The position numbers were made by a program, and so were the translations under genes. Source: Haloarcula halophila (GTDB lineage Archaea > Halobacteriota > Halobacteria > Halobacteriales > Haloarculaceae). Taken from it: a stretch of 64,000 nt of DNA. The notes beneath the pieces were generated by a model that worked only from the letters and a program-made list of their open reading frames with translations, searched no databases and had not been told where the DNA came from. Positions 375 to 25,806 of this stretch are shown piece by piece; the first letter of the stretch is position 1, and each line of letters begins with the position of its first letter. The stretch is from the NCBI RefSeq assembly GCF_029278565.1, contig NZ_CP119559.1, positions 1,364,001-1,428,000 on the forward strand, read 5' to 3'.

Positions 375-620
375 TCACTCGAGTGTGCGCTCGCGGTGAA
401 GCGTCAGCACCGAGATCACGACGCCGGCGAGCGCGACTCCCTCGATCGCGAGGACGAGCCAGAACGCCGGCCGGAAGGCGAGGCCGAACGACTGGAACAC
501 CGGCAGGATGAACAGTCCGACGGCAGCGAGTGCGACCGAGACGACCAGCCCAGCGAGCGACCGGACGTTCAGTTCCTCCGGAGTGGGCGGGTGGTCGCTC
601 ATGTCGTCGGAATCGTTCAC
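375..620 (-). CDS. Small two-helix membrane protein downstream of bacteriorhodopsin
   Basis: This 81-residue protein has two hydrophobic segments, about residues 22-44 and 51-73, and a charged C-terminal tail (HRERTLE). The start is taken as GTG at 620 because a TATA-like element sits 22-30 nt upstream (642-650, minus strand), which suits a leaderless transcript. An ATG at 602 is the alternative. It lies on the same strand as the opsin gene, 45 bp after its stop, but seems to have its own promoter. I do not recognise the family. The position next to the opsin is suggestive only. Confidence 0.6.
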   Translation of the reverse strand: MNDSDDMSDHPPTPEELNVRSLAGLVVSVALAAVGLFILPVFQSFGLAFRPAFWLVLAIEGVALAGVVISVLTLHRERTLE

Positions 621-665: not shown

Positions 666-1430
666 TCAGTCCGCGGCGGTCTCCTCAGCGGACGGGGTCG
701 GTGCGGAGTCGCTGCCGACGACGGCGCGACTGCGCAGGAGGATGAACCCGAACCCGATCTTGGCGAACAGGTCCAGGATCATGAACAGGAGCGTCTCGCC
801 GAACAGGCCGACGAGGCCGAGCCCCTCGGTGCCGACGAGCCACGCGACCGGGTAGACGGCCCAGGCCACGAGGATGACGTTCCGCAGGGTGTTGAACGTC
901 GCCTGCGTGTCTTCGTCGGCCTCGGACGCTGCCTCGCCGACGACGACGACGAGGTAGTACAGCACGAACAGCATCGCGATAGTGCTGATGGTCCAGAAGG
1001 CGTACCGTGCGACGGGCACCTTCATCAGCGTCGCGGCGAGGCCGGTCACGATCATGAACGCGTCGATCGTGATGATCGACGCGAGGTCGCGGTTACTGGC
1101 ACCGGCGAGCAAGCCGATGTCGAGCAACAGTAACGGCGTCGTAAACAGCCAGTCGGCGTACCGCGCCCAGTAGACGTCGATGACTCGTCCGTTGACGAGT
1201 TCGACCTCCGTGAGGCCGAACCCGAAGAACATCGACAGGTAGGACGCCGCAGCGATCCCCGCGATGAGGATCGTGATCACGTAGAACTCCTTTTCACGTG
1301 GGTCTTGCACGTCCCATCCCTTGGACATGAAATACACCATGCCAAGCAGCATTCCGATGGTACCGAGCGCGAGCCATATTCCCTCTCCCTCTACCCCGAG
1401 ACTTGACATCTGCAGCGGTATTGGCAGCAT
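666..1430 (-). CDS. bop: Bacteriorhodopsin, light-driven proton pump
   Basis: This 254-residue, seven-helix retinal protein keeps every proton-pump residue in correct spacing. R90, D93 and D104 match R82, D85 and D96 of Halobacterium BR (RYADWLFTTPLLLLD). D123 matches D115, E202 and E212 match the release pair E194/E204, D220 matches D212, and K224 is the retinal Schiff-base lysine. A proton pump is therefore expected rather than a chloride pump or sensory rhodopsin. The overall sequence recalls the second bacteriorhodopsin of Haloarcula. ATG at 1430 (MLPIPL) is chosen over 1460 and 1409 because a TATA-like box lies 21-27 nt upstream. Retinal would come from the crtB-crtY-blh genes at 20.8-23.6 kb. 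Confidence 0.96.
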   Translation of the reverse strand: MLPIPLQMSSLGVEGEGIWLALGTIGMLLGMVYFMSKGWDVQDPREKEFYVITILIAGIAAASYLSMFFGFGLTEVELVNGRVIDVYWARYADWLFTTPLLLLDIGLLAGASNRDLASIITIDAFMIVTGLAATLMKVPVARYAFWTISTIAMLFVLYYLVVVVGEAASEADEDTQATFNTLRNVILVAWAVYPVAWLVGTEGLGLVGLFGETLLFMILDLFAKIGFGFILLRSRAVVGSDSAPTPSAEETAAD

Positions 1431-1457: not shown

Positions 1458-1472
1458 CAAAAAAGGCTATAC

Positions 1473-1487
1473 CCAAACTGATACGTG
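1473..1487 (-). promoter_or_regulatory. Possible Bat-type UAS of bop, half conserved
   Basis: Read on the bop coding strand this is CACGTATCAGTTTGG. Against the Halobacterium bop UAS consensus ACCcnactagTTnGG, 9 of 13 defined positions match, and the right half (AGTTnGG) is complete. It sits about 16 bp upstream of the TATA-like box, close to where the UAS lies in the known bop promoter. The left half is poor, so this is tentative. Confidence 0.35.
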
Positions 1488-1594: not shown

Positions 1595-1921
1595 ATGGCG
1601 GACGAGTCAGAGACGACCGAAGCCAAGCAGGGGGCGGAAGAGACAACCCAAGACACGGGGGAGGAAGCCGGAGCAGTCCTCGACGCCGATGCGGCAACGT
1701 CGACACAGTCAACCGACGAGCTCCGGGAGATGGTCGACGAGCAACAGAAGCGGATCGAGGAACTGGAGGACCTCCTGTTGGACCTCTCGACGCGGGTGGC
1801 CGACGGGAACAATATGGGTGTCTGTCCGGACTGTCACGGCGCAGTCATCAAAGTGAACCCGTGGTTCAGGTCGGCGAAGATCAAGTGCACACAGTGCCAG
1901 CGAGTCTTCCACGAGTACTGA
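1595..1921 (+). CDS. Coiled-coil protein with C-terminal zinc ribbon, divergent from bop
   Basis: A 108-residue protein. Residues 1-40 are acidic and low complexity. A coiled coil follows at about 41-68 (ELREMVDEQQKRIEELEDLL). The C-terminal zinc-binding module has two CxxC pairs (CPDC and CTQC). The ATG at 1595 is chosen because translation from there starts a typical acidic N-terminus. An upstream TTG at 1565 is less likely. An AT-rich box (ATTAAATA, about 1548-1555) could be its TATA element. The 164-bp gap to the divergent opsin gene carries both promoters. The architecture suggests a small nucleic-acid- or protein-binding factor. Function unknown. Confidence 0.75.
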   Translation: MADESETTEAKQGAEETTQDTGEEAGAVLDADAATSTQSTDELREMVDEQQKRIEELEDLLLDLSTRVADGNNMGVCPDCHGAVIKVNPWFRSAKIKCTQCQRVFHEY

Positions 1922-7934: not shown

Positions 7935-7956
7935 AAACCGAAGCAGTTATGTATTT

Positions 7957-7970
7957 TTAGGTTAGCCAAA
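7957..7970. promoter_or_regulatory. Downstream iron-repressor-type operator of the second binding-protein gene
   Basis: TTAGGTTAGCCAAA matches TTAGGnnnnCCTAA except for one base in the right arm and ends 4 bp before the ATG at 7975. It would overlap the start site of a leaderless transcript. A TATA-like TTATGTAT (about 7947-7954) lies between the operators. Confidence 0.6.
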
Positions 7971-7974
7971 ATCC

Positions 7975-9198
7975 ATGGCGAGAGATGACAGAAGACAGCG
8001 TTCGTCGACTCGTAGAGAGTATCTGAAGTACGGGGGAGGAGTCCTCGGGACCGGCTTGCTCGCTGGTTGTACCGGGCGGTCAGACTCCGAGGTACCGGCG
8101 ACCCGGACCGACACAGCGGACGCACCCGCAACGGAGACCACGATGTCGGAAGACCGGAGCTATTCGGTGACGATGTCGCCCGTCGGGACGGTCGAGTTCG
8201 AGCGCCCGCCGGAGACGGCGACGGTGTACGACGCGACGTGGGCCGACATCCTCGTGGGCCTCGGCCACGGTGACGCCGTCCTCTCGCTCGGGCATCCGGA
8301 GGGATATTACGCCGGCTACTACGACCAGCTCGACGGCGTCTCCTTCGACACGGGCGGACTTGCGCCGCTCTACAACGACGGGCTCGACAAGGAGCAGTTC
8401 TACGAACTCGATGCGGACGTCCACCACCTCGATCCCGTCAACATCGGGTACAGTGGCTGGTCGGGATGGTCGATGACGGACGTCGAAGAGATCGAAGAGA
8501 ACATCGGCCCGTTCGTTGCGAACCGGTTGAGTCGCGCCCACGCCGAGCCGCCGGCGGAGTACGGCGGTGACTACGAGTACTACTCGCTCTGGGAGCTCAC
8601 CGAGAAGCTCGGACAGGTCTACCGCGAAGCCGAGCGGGCGGCCGAATTGCAGGCGATCCGCGACGGTCTGGTCACCGAGATCACGGCCGACCTTCCGTCC
8701 CGGTCCGACCGCCCATCAGTCGGCCTTCTCGTGTTCTCCCCCGACGAGGAGACGTTCTCGCCGTACAAGATCAACGCACCGGGCTACGGGAAGGCCCAGT
8801 ACCGGCCGTTCGGCGTCGAGGACGCCTTCGCCGACAGCGACAAGACGTACGCGGAGAACTACGAGGGGAGCTACGACATCGAAGGCCTCCTCGAAGTCGA
8901 CCCCGACGTGATCGTTCACAACTGGGACATCGAGCCGTCGGACCGGACCCGCGCGATGCGGGCGTTCTTCGCCGACAACCCCGTCGCCCGGGAACTCACT
9001 GCCGTCCAGAACGACCGCGTCTACGTCGGCGGCACGCCCACGCAGGGGCCGGTCATGAACATCTTCCAGATCGAGATGACCGCAAAGCAGCTGTTCCCCG
9101 AACGGTTCGGCGAGTGGAACGGCGTCGGCGAACACAGCCCATCGGAACGGCTGTTCGACCGCCAGCGGCTCGCTGACAGTATCAACGGCGACAGCTGA
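7975..9198 (+). CDS. Tat-exported lipoprotein, iron-complex-type ABC substrate-binding protein (copy 2)
   Basis: This 407-residue paralogue of the preceding binding protein has the same plan. The twin-arginine motif RREYLKYGG is at residues 13-21, the lipobox cysteine is C32 (LLAGC), then a linker and a TroA/FepB-like fold with matching segments such as LDKEQFYELDADVHHLDP. Both end in a region ending QGP(V/I)(M/I)N plus a helical tail. The start is ATG at 7975, 4 bp after the second operator. Iron-chelate binding on the outer face of the membrane is inferred from the operators and family. No transporter partners are adjacent, so it may serve a permease encoded elsewhere. Confidence 0.9.
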   Translation: MARDDRRQRSSTRREYLKYGGGVLGTGLLAGCTGRSDSEVPATRTDTADAPATETTMSEDRSYSVTMSPVGTVEFERPPETATVYDATWADILVGLGHGDAVLSLGHPEGYYAGYYDQLDGVSFDTGGLAPLYNDGLDKEQFYELDADVHHLDPVNIGYSGWSGWSMTDVEEIEENIGPFVANRLSRAHAEPPAEYGGDYEYYSLWELTEKLGQVYREAERAAELQAIRDGLVTEITADLPSRSDRPSVGLLVFSPDEETFSPYKINAPGYGKAQYRPFGVEDAFADSDKTYAENYEGSYDIEGLLEVDPDVIVHNWDIEPSDRTRAMRAFFADNPVARELTAVQNDRVYVGGTPTQGPVMNIFQIEMTAKQLFPERFGEWNGVGEHSPSERLFDRQRLADSINGDS

Positions 9199-20730: not shown

Positions 20731-20847
20731 GGTCGGCCCGGACGGACTACGACCAGATGCTCTGCTCCAGGTCGGTCCGGACAGACTACGACCAGATGCT
20801 CTGCTCCAGATCGGCCCGGACGGACTACGACCAGACGCTCTGCTCCC
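20731..20847. repeat. Three tandem copies of a 39-bp unit at the blh 3' end
   Basis: Copies at 20731-20769, 20770-20808 and 20809-20847 differ at only a few positions each and share cores such as GGACTACGACCAGA and GCTCTGCTCC. On the minus strand each copy encodes EQS(V/I)WS followed by a TAG. The innermost copy is the real blh end, and the other two are duplicated 3' ends beyond the stop. The unit is exactly 13 codons long. Replication slippage is the simple explanation. There are no spacers, so this is not a CRISPR array. Confidence 0.9.
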
Positions 20848-21853
20848 GATCCATCACCGTCACCACCACAACGTGGGGGAGCGTGACGACGGCGATGAAC
20901 ACCAGGTACAGGGCGACGGCTTCGGGAACCGTCTCCGGTCGGTTCGGAACGACCAGAGAGAGCCCGCCCAGTAGTGCGAGCGAGACGAGCGTCAGCGGTG
21001 CCGCATCCCGGGCGAACTGCAGGAACGCGGTCCGAACGTCACCGGCCTCGATGGCTGTAACTGCGGTGTCGTCGACGGCAAGCAACCGTACGACGTGGCG
21101 CAGCGAGTGCCACAGACAGAAGTAGAACCCGATGGCTACCACCGGCGGGACGAGCGCGAAGTACGCGATCAGTCCCACCGTCTCACCGGCGTCGAGCAGC
21201 CACGGCCGGACGCTGTCCGCCCGGGCGTAGCCGACAACCAAGACGGCGACGACGAGGACGCCGTAGCCGATCGCGAGAGCTGCTCTGACCTGCGGCCGGA
21301 ACGCCCACTGGAGCGCCGTCACCGCTGTCGGTGCGAACAGGCCAACCAGATCGGTCGCGACGCGACGGTACCACTCCGGGAACGAAAGCAGCGGGACCAA
21401 CATCGGGAGTCCACCCCGGACGGCGACGGTAGCGAGTCGCTGTGGAACCGACTCCAAGTGGTCGACACCGGCCAGCGCCACCAACGCGTAGAGATCGCCC
21501 TGACCCCAATGGAACCACGTGACGAGGATGAACACGACGAACGCGAGCGCAGGCGCGAGAAACCACGCGACTGCGTAGGCACCACCCACCACGCCGTAGA
21601 GGGCGACCACACGGGCGATCGCCCGGTAAGTCGGTTCTCGGCCGCGTGCGCGCGCTACCGCCAGATGGTCGACGGCACCGTGGGGTAGTCCCAGGAGAAC
21701 CGCGCTGACGATCAGTGGGAGATACTGGAGCGAGAGCGGGACAGACACGCCGGCGAGAAACGGGACAACGAGGACAACGATCACCCAGGAAGGAACCATC
21801 CCGGTATCCCGGAGCGTCTCGCGGGTGCGCTCGGGGAATCGCGTCACGACCAT
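20825..21853 (-). CDS. blh: Brp/Blh-type beta-carotene 15,15'-dioxygenase
   Basis: A 342-residue, multi-pass membrane protein of the Brp/Blh family, which cleaves beta-carotene to two retinals. Iron-ligand-type histidine motifs are present: LGLPHGAVDHLAVAR, WFHWGQGDLYAL, WHSLRH and LPHVVVVTVMD. It is the last gene of the crtB-crtY-blh unit and overlaps the end of crtY by 10 bp (its ATG lies inside the crtY 3' end), suggesting translational coupling. It supplies the chromophore for the opsin at 666-1430. Its 3' end lies in a tandem repeat. Confidence 0.95.
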   Translation of the reverse strand: MVVTRFPERTRETLRDTGMVPSWVIVVLVVPFLAGVSVPLSLQYLPLIVSAVLLGLPHGAVDHLAVARARGREPTYRAIARVVALYGVVGGAYAVAWFLAPALAFVVFILVTWFHWGQGDLYALVALAGVDHLESVPQRLATVAVRGGLPMLVPLLSFPEWYRRVATDLVGLFAPTAVTALQWAFRPQVRAALAIGYGVLVVAVLVVGYARADSVRPWLLDAGETVGLIAYFALVPPVVAIGFYFCLWHSLRHVVRLLAVDDTAVTAIEAGDVRTAFLQFARDAAPLTLVSLALLGGLSLVVPNRPETVPEAVALYLVFIAVVTLPHVVVVTVMDREQSVWS

Positions 21854-22569
21854 CTATCGACCACCCAGACGTAGAGGACGATCCCCTGGACGACGAACAG
21901 CGACGTCAACAGGAAGAAGACGGCTTCCTCGATCGGTAGCCCGAGTCCCGGGAGTTCCAGCCCGGTCGTGTACCGGTCCGAGAGCGACCAGATGTTCAGC
22001 GCCAGCGCGACGCTGTCGATCAACCAGAGGTAGCCGGTTGGGACCAGCGTCCCGACGGCGACGGTCCGCCACTCCCGGCGGAGGAACTGCCAGCCGAAGG
22101 CCCACTGGATCGCGAGGATCGGCGCACTCCAGGCCAACAGCGATCCGAGGTACAGCCCGCTGGACCGGTCGAGGAGAGCGAGGCCCGAGATTCCTACGAG
22201 GGCTGCTGCCAGGAAGCCGACGGCACGGACCCGCACCGGCGTCCGCAACGACGGCGTCGTGTCGACCCGGAAGCGAGCGAGCCAGAGGCCGACCAGGAAC
22301 GGTTGTAACAGGAAGAAGAGATACTCCCCCAGCGGCGCACGGAACCCGCGGACGAGGACCGTCCCCTCACCGTACCACCAGACGCCGCGTCCGATGAGGT
22401 AGTTGTCCCAGGGGGTCGTGTACACGAGCGCGAGTCCGGCCAGCAATGCCGTGGCCGTGAGGACAGTCCGGCGGCTAGCGAGTCGGTACGGGGTCGTCAG
22501 TACCAGTCCCACGACCACCGGGACGACGAACAGCGCGTGGAACTGGAGATAGGTGAGCAGGGCTGTCAT
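21844..22569 (-). CDS. crtY: Lycopene beta-cyclase (CrtYcd/CarR type)
   Basis: A 241-residue membrane protein with about seven helices. It is a fused form of the two-subunit actinobacterial/archaeal lycopene cyclases (CrtYc+CrtYd). Conserved segments include the N-terminal helix (YLQFHALFVVP), TTPWDNYLI, GEYLFFLLQP, and in the second half LPIEEAVFFLLTSLFVV. It converts lycopene to beta-carotene. The start is ATG at 22569 (MTALLTYLQFH), 19 bp after the crtB stop. Upstream extension of the frame would run back into crtB. Confidence 0.94.
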   Translation of the reverse strand: MTALLTYLQFHALFVVPVVVGLVLTTPYRLASRRTVLTATALLAGLALVYTTPWDNYLIGRGVWWYGEGTVLVRGFRAPLGEYLFFLLQPFLVGLWLARFRVDTTPSLRTPVRVRAVGFLAAALVGISGLALLDRSSGLYLGSLLAWSAPILAIQWAFGWQFLRREWRTVAVGTLVPTGYLWLIDSVALALNIWSLSDRYTTGLELPGLGLPIEEAVFFLLTSLFVVQGIVLYVWVVDRWS

Positions 22570-22588
22570 CGACCCGGTCGGAGAGTCC

Positions 22589-23560
22589 TCACCCGCGCCA
22601 GGTCGGCTGTCCCGGGCTAGTGACCTCGGCCGGAACTGTCCCGGGCGACTGTTCGGAGACGGCACTGACCGCGTAGAACGTCGCCTCGGGATCACCGTTT
22701 CGGCGCCAGTGCCACCAGGTCCGGGCCAACAGCCAGAGCCGGCGACGGCGGGTCAGTTCGGGCGTCTCCGAGAGGACGTCGTACCCACGGTTACGGATGA
22801 GACGGTGGTGTTCGGCGTACAGTACTGCCGACAGCAGAACGCCGAACTGACAGTCCTCGGGGAGATACCGGATGCCGGCGACTCCCTCTCGGTACAGCTC
22901 TTCGGTCCGGGCCAACTCCGTCTGCATCACCGCGCGGAACCCCTCGTCGACCTCGGCGTCGCCCAGTTGCTCTTCGGTGACGCCGTGGTGCTCCAGCGTC
23001 TCCTGTGGGAGGTAGACCCGGCCGTAATCGTGGATATCCTCGCGGACATCCCGGAGGAAGTTCGTCAACTGGAACGCCTCGGCCAGTGCCTGGGCGTGTG
23101 GGAGCGCCGTCTCTTTCTCCGGCGGGTCCATCACCATCGTCATCATGTTCCCGACCGCGACGGCGGAGCCACGCATGTACTCACGGAGGTCCTCGAACGT
23201 CTCGTACCGCGCCTGGGCGATGTCCATCTCCATGGCGTCGATGAAGACGTTGACCTCCTCGTCGGGGATGTCGTGATCCTCACGGAGCTGCTGGAAGGCC
23301 GCGAGGACCGCACCCTCGTCGGAGTCCTCGGGCTCCCGGTTGCCAAGCGCCATCTCCCGGAACTCTTCGAGCCGCTCGTGTTGGACGTTCGGGGGCGGCC
23401 CGTCCCGTTGGTCGACGACGTCGTCGGCGACCCGGAAGAAGGCGTACATCACGTAGGTCGGATGGCGGGTTCGCTCGGGGAGCAGACGGGTCGCGAGGTG
23501 GAACGTTCGGCCCGTTCGTTGCTGGATCGACTTGCTGGCCTGGATATTATCAGATTGCAT
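22589..23560 (-). CDS. crtB: Phytoene synthase
   Basis: A 323-residue trans-isoprenyl diphosphate synthase of the squalene/phytoene synthase family. Both Asp-rich Mg2+/diphosphate motifs are present: ADDVVD (D46-D50) and NFLRDVREDIHDYGR (D171-D175). It condenses two GGPP to phytoene, the first committed step to carotenoids and retinal. It is first in the crtB-crtY-blh unit. Upstream lie a Bat-type UAS, a TATA-like box and two palindromes, implying a leader of roughly 180 nt. Confidence 0.95.
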   Translation of the reverse strand: MQSDNIQASKSIQQRTGRTFHLATRLLPERTRHPTYVMYAFFRVADDVVDQRDGPPPNVQHERLEEFREMALGNREPEDSDEGAVLAAFQQLREDHDIPDEEVNVFIDAMEMDIAQARYETFEDLREYMRGSAVAVGNMMTMVMDPPEKETALPHAQALAEAFQLTNFLRDVREDIHDYGRVYLPQETLEHHGVTEEQLGDAEVDEGFRAVMQTELARTEELYREGVAGIRYLPEDCQFGVLLSAVLYAEHHRLIRNRGYDVLSETPELTRRRRLWLLARTWWHWRRNGDPEATFYAVSAVSEQSPGTVPAEVTSPGQPTWRG

Positions 23561-23763: not shown

Positions 23764-23770
23764 CTTTAAG
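23764..23770 (-). promoter_or_regulatory. TATA-like box of the crtB promoter
   Basis: The minus strand reads CTTAAAG, 6 bp downstream of the UAS. The predicted start would be near 23740. Confidence 0.35.
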
Positions 23771-23776
23771 CTGTGT

Positions 23777-23791
23777 ACCCAACTACTTTGG
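23777..23791. promoter_or_regulatory. Bat-type UAS before crtB
   Basis: ACCCAACTACTTTGG matches the Halobacterium bop UAS consensus ACCcnactagTTnGG at 12 of 13 defined positions on the plus strand. Read on the crtB strand it matches at 10 of 13, since the element is nearly palindromic. It lies 6 bp upstream of a TATA-like box, as in the known bop promoter. In Halobacterium crtB1 is a Bat target, which supports the call. Confidence 0.6.
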
Positions 23792-23822
23792 AGGAGACGT
23801 GCAGTCGTCTCCCGCGAGTGGG

Positions 23823-25433
23823 TTACCGGGACTCGAACACCGCTGTCAGGAGCTTTCGTTCGCCCGCACGGAGATGCTGGTGGAACGTCGACGGCGTGAT
23901 ATCCATCGACGCCGCGAGTTCGTCTCCCGAGACCTCACGGGGCCACTCGAAGAACCCGCCGAGGTACCCCTTCCTGAGCGCGGCCAGTTGCCGGTTCGTC
24001 AGGTCCTCCTCGACTGACGTGAGAAACGCCTTTCTGGTCGTCGGCGGTTCGTCCCGCTCCTGGACCGAGAGGAGCTCCGTGTTCGGGTGGTGGTCCCGGA
24101 CGTGCTCGACGACGGCACGGGTCGCTGTCTCGGCCGAGAGCGTCGCCGTGAACGTCGCCCGGCCCGGTTCGACGACGATGTCCGTCGTCTCGGCACCGCG
24201 GTCGGCCAACAGCGAGACAACCGGCGGATCGGCGACGGTAAACTCGAACAGCGACGTCTCGTCACCCGAGGAGACGTGGGTCACAGCAGTGACCTGCGGG
24301 TGGTCGGCGGCGAGGGCACAGACCGCCGACGGGTCGTCCGTGGTGACGTTGAAGAACATGACCGTCTCGTCCTCGTCGGCGACACTCCCGCCGTACTCCA
24401 TCCGACAGTCCAGTTCCGCCGCGACGCCGACGAAGAAGACATCCTCGTCGGCGATCTGGAGTTCGAGTTCGGTGACGTTGTCGGCAGTCAACACCCGGCT
24501 GGTCTCGATGGCGTCGATCGCCTTCGAGGCCGCCTGCCCGATCACACCGAGGATGGCCCGCTCGCGGGGGTCAAACACGTCGATACTGTCGGCATAAACT
24601 GTCAGAACCCCGTACAGCGACTCGCCGGAAGCCAGCGGGACAGCCGCCATCGATCCCGCTTCCATGCCGGCGATCCCTGCGTGGGTGTCGCCGAACTCCC
24701 CTGTCACCGTCTGGATCTCCCGGGTCCGAGCGGCAGTCGCGACCGGGTCGTCGGCCTCGATGGAGATCCCAGCAGTCGCGTCCGGCGATCCGGCCGTCGG
24801 TTCCAGCGTCTCCCGCCGGATGTCGAAGCCCGCGATCCAGGCCACCTGGTAGGACTCGACCGTCTCGACACGGTCACAGATCGTCCGCTCGACTTCCTCA
24901 CGGGAGTCGGCCGACATCACGTCGTCGAGGACGGCGTGGACGAGGCCGTCGATCCGCGACAGGAGGTGTTCGAGGTCCTGGCGCTGGGCATCGAGCTGTT
25001 CGCTCCGGCGGTCGGCCGCGAGTTCCGCGAGCTTCCGCTGTGTGATGTCGATGTGTGCGATGACGACGCTGCCGGCCTCCTGTTGTGGGAGCGGGGCGAC
25101 CCGCATGAGGAACCACTGCTGTTTCTCGGGCGTGTGACAGGGGTACTCCAGCGTGAACAGCTCTTCCTCCCCGTCGATGACCGACTTGATCCCGTCGACG
25201 GCCGCCTGTGCGTACTCGTCGGCCTCGACGTCGGTCGTCTCGAAGTAGTTGACCCCCTCGATCTCCTCGTCTTCGACCCCGGAGAACTCCCGCCAGGCCC
25301 GGTTGGTAAAGAGGATCGTCCCGTCCTCGTCCAACACCGCGATGTTCATCGGCAGCGTGTCCAGCGTCGACCGCGCGAGTGTCTGTGATGCCCTCATGGC
25401 GAATCCGGCCACCGGTGAATGGTGTCGATGCAC
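23823..25433 (-). CDS. Bat-type bacterioopsin activator homologue (PAS-GAF-HTH_10)
   Basis: A 536-residue soluble regulator. A PAS domain (about residues 20-130; LPMNIAVLDEDGTILFTNRAW, then PAC-like HIDITQRK) is followed by a coiled linker and a GAF domain (about 165-320). A BAT-type linking domain comes next, and a C-terminal HTH_10 domain ends the protein (LTNRQLAALRKGYLGGFFEWP...). This is the order of Bat, the oxygen/light-responsive activator of bop, brp and crtB1 in Halobacterium. It sits directly upstream of crtB on the same strand. Start GTG at 25433 is supported by a TATA-like box 20-25 nt upstream; ATG at 25397 is the alternative. Many haloarchaea have several Bat-like proteins, so the assignment leans on context. 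Confidence 0.85.
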   Translation of the reverse strand: MHRHHSPVAGFAMRASQTLARSTLDTLPMNIAVLDEDGTILFTNRAWREFSGVEDEEIEGVNYFETTDVEADEYAQAAVDGIKSVIDGEEELFTLEYPCHTPEKQQWFLMRVAPLPQQEAGSVVIAHIDITQRKLAELAADRRSEQLDAQRQDLEHLLSRIDGLVHAVLDDVMSADSREEVERTICDRVETVESYQVAWIAGFDIRRETLEPTAGSPDATAGISIEADDPVATAARTREIQTVTGEFGDTHAGIAGMEAGSMAAVPLASGESLYGVLTVYADSIDVFDPRERAILGVIGQAASKAIDAIETSRVLTADNVTELELQIADEDVFFVGVAAELDCRMEYGGSVADEDETVMFFNVTTDDPSAVCALAADHPQVTAVTHVSSGDETSLFEFTVADPPVVSLLADRGAETTDIVVEPGRATFTATLSAETATRAVVEHVRDHHPNTELLSVQERDEPPTTRKAFLTSVEEDLTNRQLAALRKGYLGGFFEWPREVSGDELAASMDITPSTFHQHLRAGERKLLTAVFESR

Positions 25434-25524: not shown

Positions 25525-25806
25525 ATGTTCGGGTCCCGGACCGACCGGCAGACGGTGACCTGCATCGGCTGTGGCGAGAGCGTCGCACGGTCGGACGCCC
25601 GCGAGTACGACAAGCACGGTAATCGGTGGGAGCGACACGAGAAAGAGTTCGAGTTCTTCTGTACCGACTGTTTCAGCGACCTCTGTCGACAGCCACGCGA
25701 GGGATTGGAGACGACACTCGATGCGGCCGGTGCCGGTGAGACCGATCGGGAGACCTTTCTGGAACGCTATCGGGAACTCTCCGAGGAACGCAACGTCGAG
25801 CGGTAG
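25525..25806 (+). CDS. Small zinc-ribbon protein
   Basis: A 93-residue protein with an N-terminal CxxC (TCIGCGE) and, about 30 residues on, CTDCFSDLC, a likely zinc ribbon. An acidic helical tail follows (RETFLERYRELSEERN). A conserved haloarchaeal type of unknown function. The ATG at 25525 is the first start with acceptable context. It lies 41 bp before the RNB nuclease gene on the same strand, so cotranscription is possible. Confidence 0.72.
   Translation: MFGSRTDRQTVTCIGCGESVARSDAREYDKHGNRWERHEKEFEFFCTDCFSDLCRQPREGLETTLDAAGAGETDRETFLERYRELSEERNVER

Follow-up and report, generated by a model that had tools for sequence, protein, structure and literature searches.

A conserved candidate Bat-type activator box upstream of the retinal-synthesis genes crtB, crtY, and blh in Haloarcula halophila

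Does the phytoene synthase gene crtB of Haloarcula halophila lie behind a regulatory site of the kind that controls bacteriorhodopsin synthesis in Halobacterium, and if so, which genes share that site and which protein is likely to bind it? In Halobacterium, the upstream activator sequence (UAS) is found near bop, brp, and crtB1 (PMC1447603; PMC1885257); Bat, Brz, and Brb act jointly, and several Bat homologues occur within one genome (PMC3184054). We analyzed a 64-kb stretch of DNA (hereafter the window; G000:C1:1364001-1428000, where G000 is this genome, 4.04 Mb in 4 contigs), for which a preliminary description had proposed a near-consensus UAS before crtB. At crtB, the closest named relatives belong to Halomicroarcula and Haloarcula. 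Pfam and NCBIfam searches gave the minus-strand order of a bat-type gene, crtB, a lycopene-cyclase-domain gene, and blh, in the following setting (window coordinates):

20825..21853, minus strand: blh, beta-carotene 15,15'-dioxygenase of the Brp/Blh family (PF15461, 2.3e-82; TIGR03753, 1.2e-75)
21844..22695, minus strand: crtY-like lycopene cyclase, ORF limits (TIGR03462, 4.3e-38)
22589..23560, minus strand: crtB, squalene/phytoene synthase family, first gene of the apparent operon (PF00494, 3.3e-71)
23764..23770, minus strand: TATA-like box CTTAAAG, read directly, 7 bp after the sense 15-mer
23778..23792, minus strand: candidate Bat-type upstream activator box of the crtB operon, TCCAAAGTAGTTGGG, in promoter orientation, matching 10/13 positions of the published consensus
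23823..25433, minus strand: Bat-type regulator with PAS, GAF, BAT, and HTH_10 domains (PF08448; PF13185; PF15915, 2.7e-41; PF04967, 4.9e-17)
25525..25806, plus strand: small CxxC protein DUF7562, divergent from bat (PF24443, 1.4e-37)

The crtB, crtY, and blh genes follow one another in the same direction, their ends overlapping, and resemble a single retinal-synthesis operon. Its promoter, at crtB, probably drives chromophore synthesis from phytoene synthase through the cleavage enzyme. Because the crtY-like ORF overlaps crtB, the true crtY start probably lies below 22589. As the preliminary description had it, the next gene upstream of crtB, on the same strand, encodes a Bat-type regulator, and its product contains the domain set expected of such proteins (PAS and GAF sensors, BAT, HTH_10). 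The DUF7562 gene near crtB is conserved across the genus, as determined by tblastn in relatives.

The 12/13 match to the bop UAS that had been reported at 23777-23791 of the plus strand (ACCCAACTACTTTGG) is real in sequence and position, and it is the sole match to the consensus with ≤1 mismatch in the 64-kb window (0.05 expected from dinucleotide shuffles), but it reads antisense to crtB; the sense reading of the same box is displaced by one base and matches the Halobacterium-type consensus ACCcnactagTTnGG at 10/13 positions. The quasi-palindromic form of the box (CCAA-N5-TTGG) explains why both strand readings score. In promoter orientation, the box is positioned directly upstream of the TATA-like box, and the 6-bp distance given earlier is exact, with 23771-23776 separating the plus-strand 15-mer from CTTAAAG. 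The promoter position implies a crtB leader of ~180 nt, which is long for a haloarchaeon; leaderless transcripts are common in this group. A Brb-like small basic ORF within this leader (53 aa in G000 and G020; 49 aa in Haloarcula species) was rejected as coding because its variable columns display no third-position bias (17/16/19 and 12/20/18) and two genomes carry a 1-nt deletion in it.

When the crtB upstream regions of 25 genomes of the genus were aligned, an island of the form TCC[A/G/T]AA-[GC][CT]AGTT[T/G]GG emerged, followed after ~7 nt by TTTAAA or CTTATN. Among 15 representative genomes, the box was the best-scoring non-coding 15-nt window of the 300 bp upstream of crtB, the only competing conserved stretch being where the bat coding sequence ends. 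Although another gene precedes crtB in G013 and G017, CCTAACACGGTTGGG-N7-GTTAAAG is retained there, which indicates that the element belongs to crtB rather than to the 3' end of bat. Outside the genus, a sense box with a TATA-like box was identified in 13 of 68 crtB upstream regions (0.1 in shuffles, 1 antisense, 7/1360 random windows), from Halosimplex, Halorientalis, Halorhabdus, Halapricum, Haladaptatus, and other genera, and crtB upstream regions of Natrialbaceae contain ACCCCACTAGTGAGG-N8-TTTTATA. Using the published consensus at a threshold of at least 10/13 together with a TATA-like box, we found sites in 30/80 crtB upstream regions of named haloarchaea, with 0.07 in shuffles and 1 antisense. 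Taken together, the sites fit the palindrome CC-NN-ACTAGT-NN-GG, which forms the core of the Halobacterium UAS. Outside the genus, there is an association between the box and a bat-like gene adjoining crtB (11/16 vs 14/52; Fisher p 0.006, phylogeny ignored), and several other genera, besides G013 and G017, have the box without an adjacent bat. Outside the genus, opsin presence does not sharply predict the crtB site: opsins occur in 15/16 site-bearing and 26/34 other genomes by the first regex. In Halobaculum, Halonotius, and others, a different recurrent stretch, CACCAACTGTTATGGTG or ACGAACTGTTATG, replaces the box before crtB.

A consensus match by itself is insufficient to discriminate genome-wide, because sites with ≤2 mismatches number 56 (7 of them with ≤1 mismatch) vs 50 for a reversed-pattern control; conservation and the TATA context set the crtB site apart. 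We used a sequence profile trained on sites from other genomes only, with this genome left out, by which the crtB box ranks first in the 4.04 Mb (13.3 bits) with a weak genome-wide E-value of 0.4 and is the best match within the window with an E-value of 0.0064. A broader profile that included DUF7563 sites (discussed below) was applied to 26 genomes, and among the matches listed, 52/57 fell at crtB (20), DUF7563 (21), or bacteriorhodopsin genes (11), a sensitivity that is partly circular in that the training sites came from the same gene families; at most 150 candidates were scored per genome, and weaker targets are possible. Only 5/57 fell elsewhere among the matches listed. The concern that unrelated promoters in number might score as well as crtB was not borne out, as no other equally strong sites were present among the matches listed for the 26 genomes. 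An alternative pattern, CC-N7-TTKGG-N-TA, was dropped because it had the wrong register for crtB. Immediately before a periplasmic-binding-protein gene (7975-9198), window positions 7937-7968 (plus strand) combine a 9/13 match and an AT-rich stretch, probably by chance.

The genome encodes four rhodopsins, one of them at the start of the window:

375..620, minus strand: small protein containing hydrophobic segments, encoded downstream of the opsin at the position described for bap (OE3107F) in PMC2253796 (ORF)
666..1409, minus strand: bacteriorhodopsin, rarer copy (BR2 type) (PF01036, 5.9e-67; motif RYADWLFTTPLLLLDIG)
1472..1486, minus strand: weaker box before the window opsin, ACGTATCAGTTTGGG (7/13; second-best profile match of the window, 7.6 bits)
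1595..1921, plus strand: CPxC-type zinc-finger protein encoded divergently to the opsin, at the position described for the OE3095R homologue in PMC2253796 (ORF with CPDCHG...CTQC)

A weaker UAS match before bop had also been described, and a 7/13 site in promoter orientation is indeed present; the 'bop' of the window, however, is the rarer bacteriorhodopsin copy, found in 3/24 opsin-bearing genomes of the genus, and the main copy lies outside the window. The window-opsin box is retained in the orthologs of G009 and G018. The main copy (G000:C1:2228553, 0.84 Mb away and ~5 kb from ATP synthase genes) is preceded by the box CCCAAACCATTTGGGTA (9/13; 10 bits). Two bacteriorhodopsin copies, one linked to ATPase genes and the other to bac and bap, are known from H. 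marismortui (PMC1885257). Across the genus, a sense-oriented box precedes the main bacteriorhodopsin copies and also most halorhodopsins, in the latter as ACCGATACCGTTTGG or a similar stretch; the halorhodopsin box is degenerate in this genome (G000:C1:538785) and in its closest relative (G020:C1:3398995). The box is therefore common to crtB and both bacteriorhodopsin copies here and to halorhodopsin in relatives, that is, to opsin and retinal/carotenoid targets as for the Halobacterium UAS. The blh gene of the window sits within the crtB operon and hence behind the crtB box; for the second Brp/Blh copy (C1:1665532), there was no profile match above 5.9 bits in the surrounding 7 kb. The promoter of A-type ATP synthase subunit K, near the main bacteriorhodopsin gene, contains a strongly conserved stretch, GAACCGTTTTGGGAAGCTTTATGAA (also GAACCGTTTTGGGAAGCTTTATG), that resembles half the box; it was rejected as a regulon member because the CC half-site is not conserved.

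The profile trained on crtB and opsin sites independently identified a further target. Its second-ranked box genome-wide lies 60-80 bp upstream of a gene for a 49-aa DUF7563 zinc-finger protein at C1:2026191 (G000:C1:2026191-2026417). The most palindromic version of the box, for example TACCCAAGTATTTGGGTA, is located before this gene in nearly all other genomes of the genus, where the upstream palindrome follows the pattern TACCCAA-nnA-TTTGGGTA, and a related box lies at -76 of the DUF7563 gene in four Halosimplex genomes. The earlier proposal of one regulon spread over two loci thus holds insofar as the same type of box precedes the crtB operon and the bacteriorhodopsin genes, but the box is found in addition at DUF7563 and the second bacteriorhodopsin copy. 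The accompanying suggestion that carotenoid supply may be more responsive than the opsin is not supported: it rests on the weak site of the rarer copy, and the site of the main copy is better.

Two genomes of the genus, G001 and G022 (99% complete), contain no rhodopsin and no Brp/Blh enzyme but keep bat (70-71% identity), crtB, and the box, as TCCAAAGCAGTTGGG-N7-TTTAAA and TCCAAAGTAGTTTGG-N7-TTTAAA. Likewise, no opsin was seen in Halostagnicola A56 (site 12/13) and Natronorubrum texcoconense (10/13). Because the box is kept without opsin or blh in two genomes, opsin supply may not be its sole role: either opsin and blh were lost recently, or the box additionally controls carotenoids with other functions, for example bacterioruberin. 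A tentative scenario, which we regard as possible and somewhat short of an even chance, is that of an ancient haloarchaeal carotenoid regulon with a core of crtB and DUF7563, which opsins would have joined in phototrophs and which would survive as bacterioruberin control after loss of the opsins and retinal enzymes; DUF7563 would then be a new partner or target. Opsin-less genomes that bear the box could serve as natural controls for distinguishing a circuit for phototrophy from one for general carotenoid supply.

The crtB box, with the sequence, orientation, spacing, conservation, specificity, and common targets observed above, is very probably a real, conserved regulatory site, and we consider it probable that it is the activator site of the crtB-crtY-blh promoter, in the class of the Halobacterium bop/brp/crtB1 UAS, with the adjoining Bat-type protein as its likeliest binder. 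By analogy with Halobacterium, we infer which protein binds, which signal acts, and that the effect is activation and not repression. A quasi-palindrome of the form CC-NNA-N4-TNN-GG ~7 bp upstream of the TATA-like box would allow a dimeric activator to reach the TBP/TFB complex. The likeliest such activator would be the PAS-GAF-HTH_10 protein encoded immediately upstream, perhaps joined by a small zinc-finger partner as in the Bat, Brz, and Brb system of Halobacterium. Under low oxygen or light, phytoene synthase, retinal synthesis, and the bacteriorhodopsins would then all be raised by this activator. Since the box occurs without an adjacent bat (G013, G017, and several genera) and without opsin (G001 and G022), another HTH_10 paralogue or dimeric factor with the same palindrome is conceivable. 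The fullest form of this alternative, in which a different factor (an HTH_10 paralogue or a zinc-finger protein such as DUF7563) binds for general carotenoid control and the adjoining Bat-type protein does not, would accommodate those genomes, including the absence of blh from the opsin-less pair, as well as the placement of the most palindromic box before the DUF7563 gene. We judge it unlikely, in view of the association between bat-like genes beside crtB and the box outside the genus and the presence of the same box at bacteriorhodopsin promoters.

The nearly constant spacing to the TATA-like box, and the similar conserved stretch GAACCGTTTTGGGAAGCTTTATG at the ATP synthase subunit K promoter, could also be expected if the box were a core-promoter (TFB-recognition) element of strong promoters generally rather than a regulator site. 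Such a general element should occur at many more promoters than the few (5/57 profile matches in 26 genomes, among the matches listed) outside crtB, bacteriorhodopsin, and DUF7563, and the box is palindromic, making this explanation very improbable. Least credible of all is a functionless chance match to a loose consensus: the near-equal numbers of ≤2-mismatch sites in the genome and in the reversed control are what it would predict, but the fixed TATA spacing conserved in many genera, well above shuffles, and the first rank with an independently built profile argue strongly against it.

A UAS before crtB1 is already known in Halobacterium, and the crtB box of H. halophila extends that circuit. 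It resembles the Halobacterium bop/brp/crtB1 UAS (PMC1447603, PMC1502140, PMC1885257) in its palindromic core, its place just upstream of the TATA box, its target types (bacteriorhodopsin and phytoene synthase), and the linkage of a Bat-type gene. It differs in gene order, crtB being the first gene of a crtB-crtY-blh operon that directly follows bat and is separate from bop, in a left half of TCC instead of ACC, in the occurrence of the box at two bacteriorhodopsin copies and a DUF7563 gene, and in its persistence in genomes without opsins. Similarly, the pairing of a PAS-GAF-HTH_10 protein with nearby small CxxC zinc-finger genes (DUF7562 beside bat and the OE3095R type beside the opsin) is shared with the Bat/Brz/Brb system of Halobacterium salinarum (PMC2253796, PMC3184054), whereas no brz or brb orthologue was established here and the crtB-leader ORF failed the coding test.

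Most work on control by Bat and the UAS concerns Halobacterium salinarum; with the conserved box and a short list of strong targets, the circuit becomes testable across Haloarculaceae and Natrialbaceae, and DUF7563 is a concrete new gene for such tests. Among individual relatives, a good box, ACCAAACTGTTTGGG, was also found before a small acidic ORF starting MSKSQSPERVAELRD (G009:C4:40499), and G012 and G015 have profile matches ~30 kb from crtB, a distance similar to that of the small-ORF box in G009.
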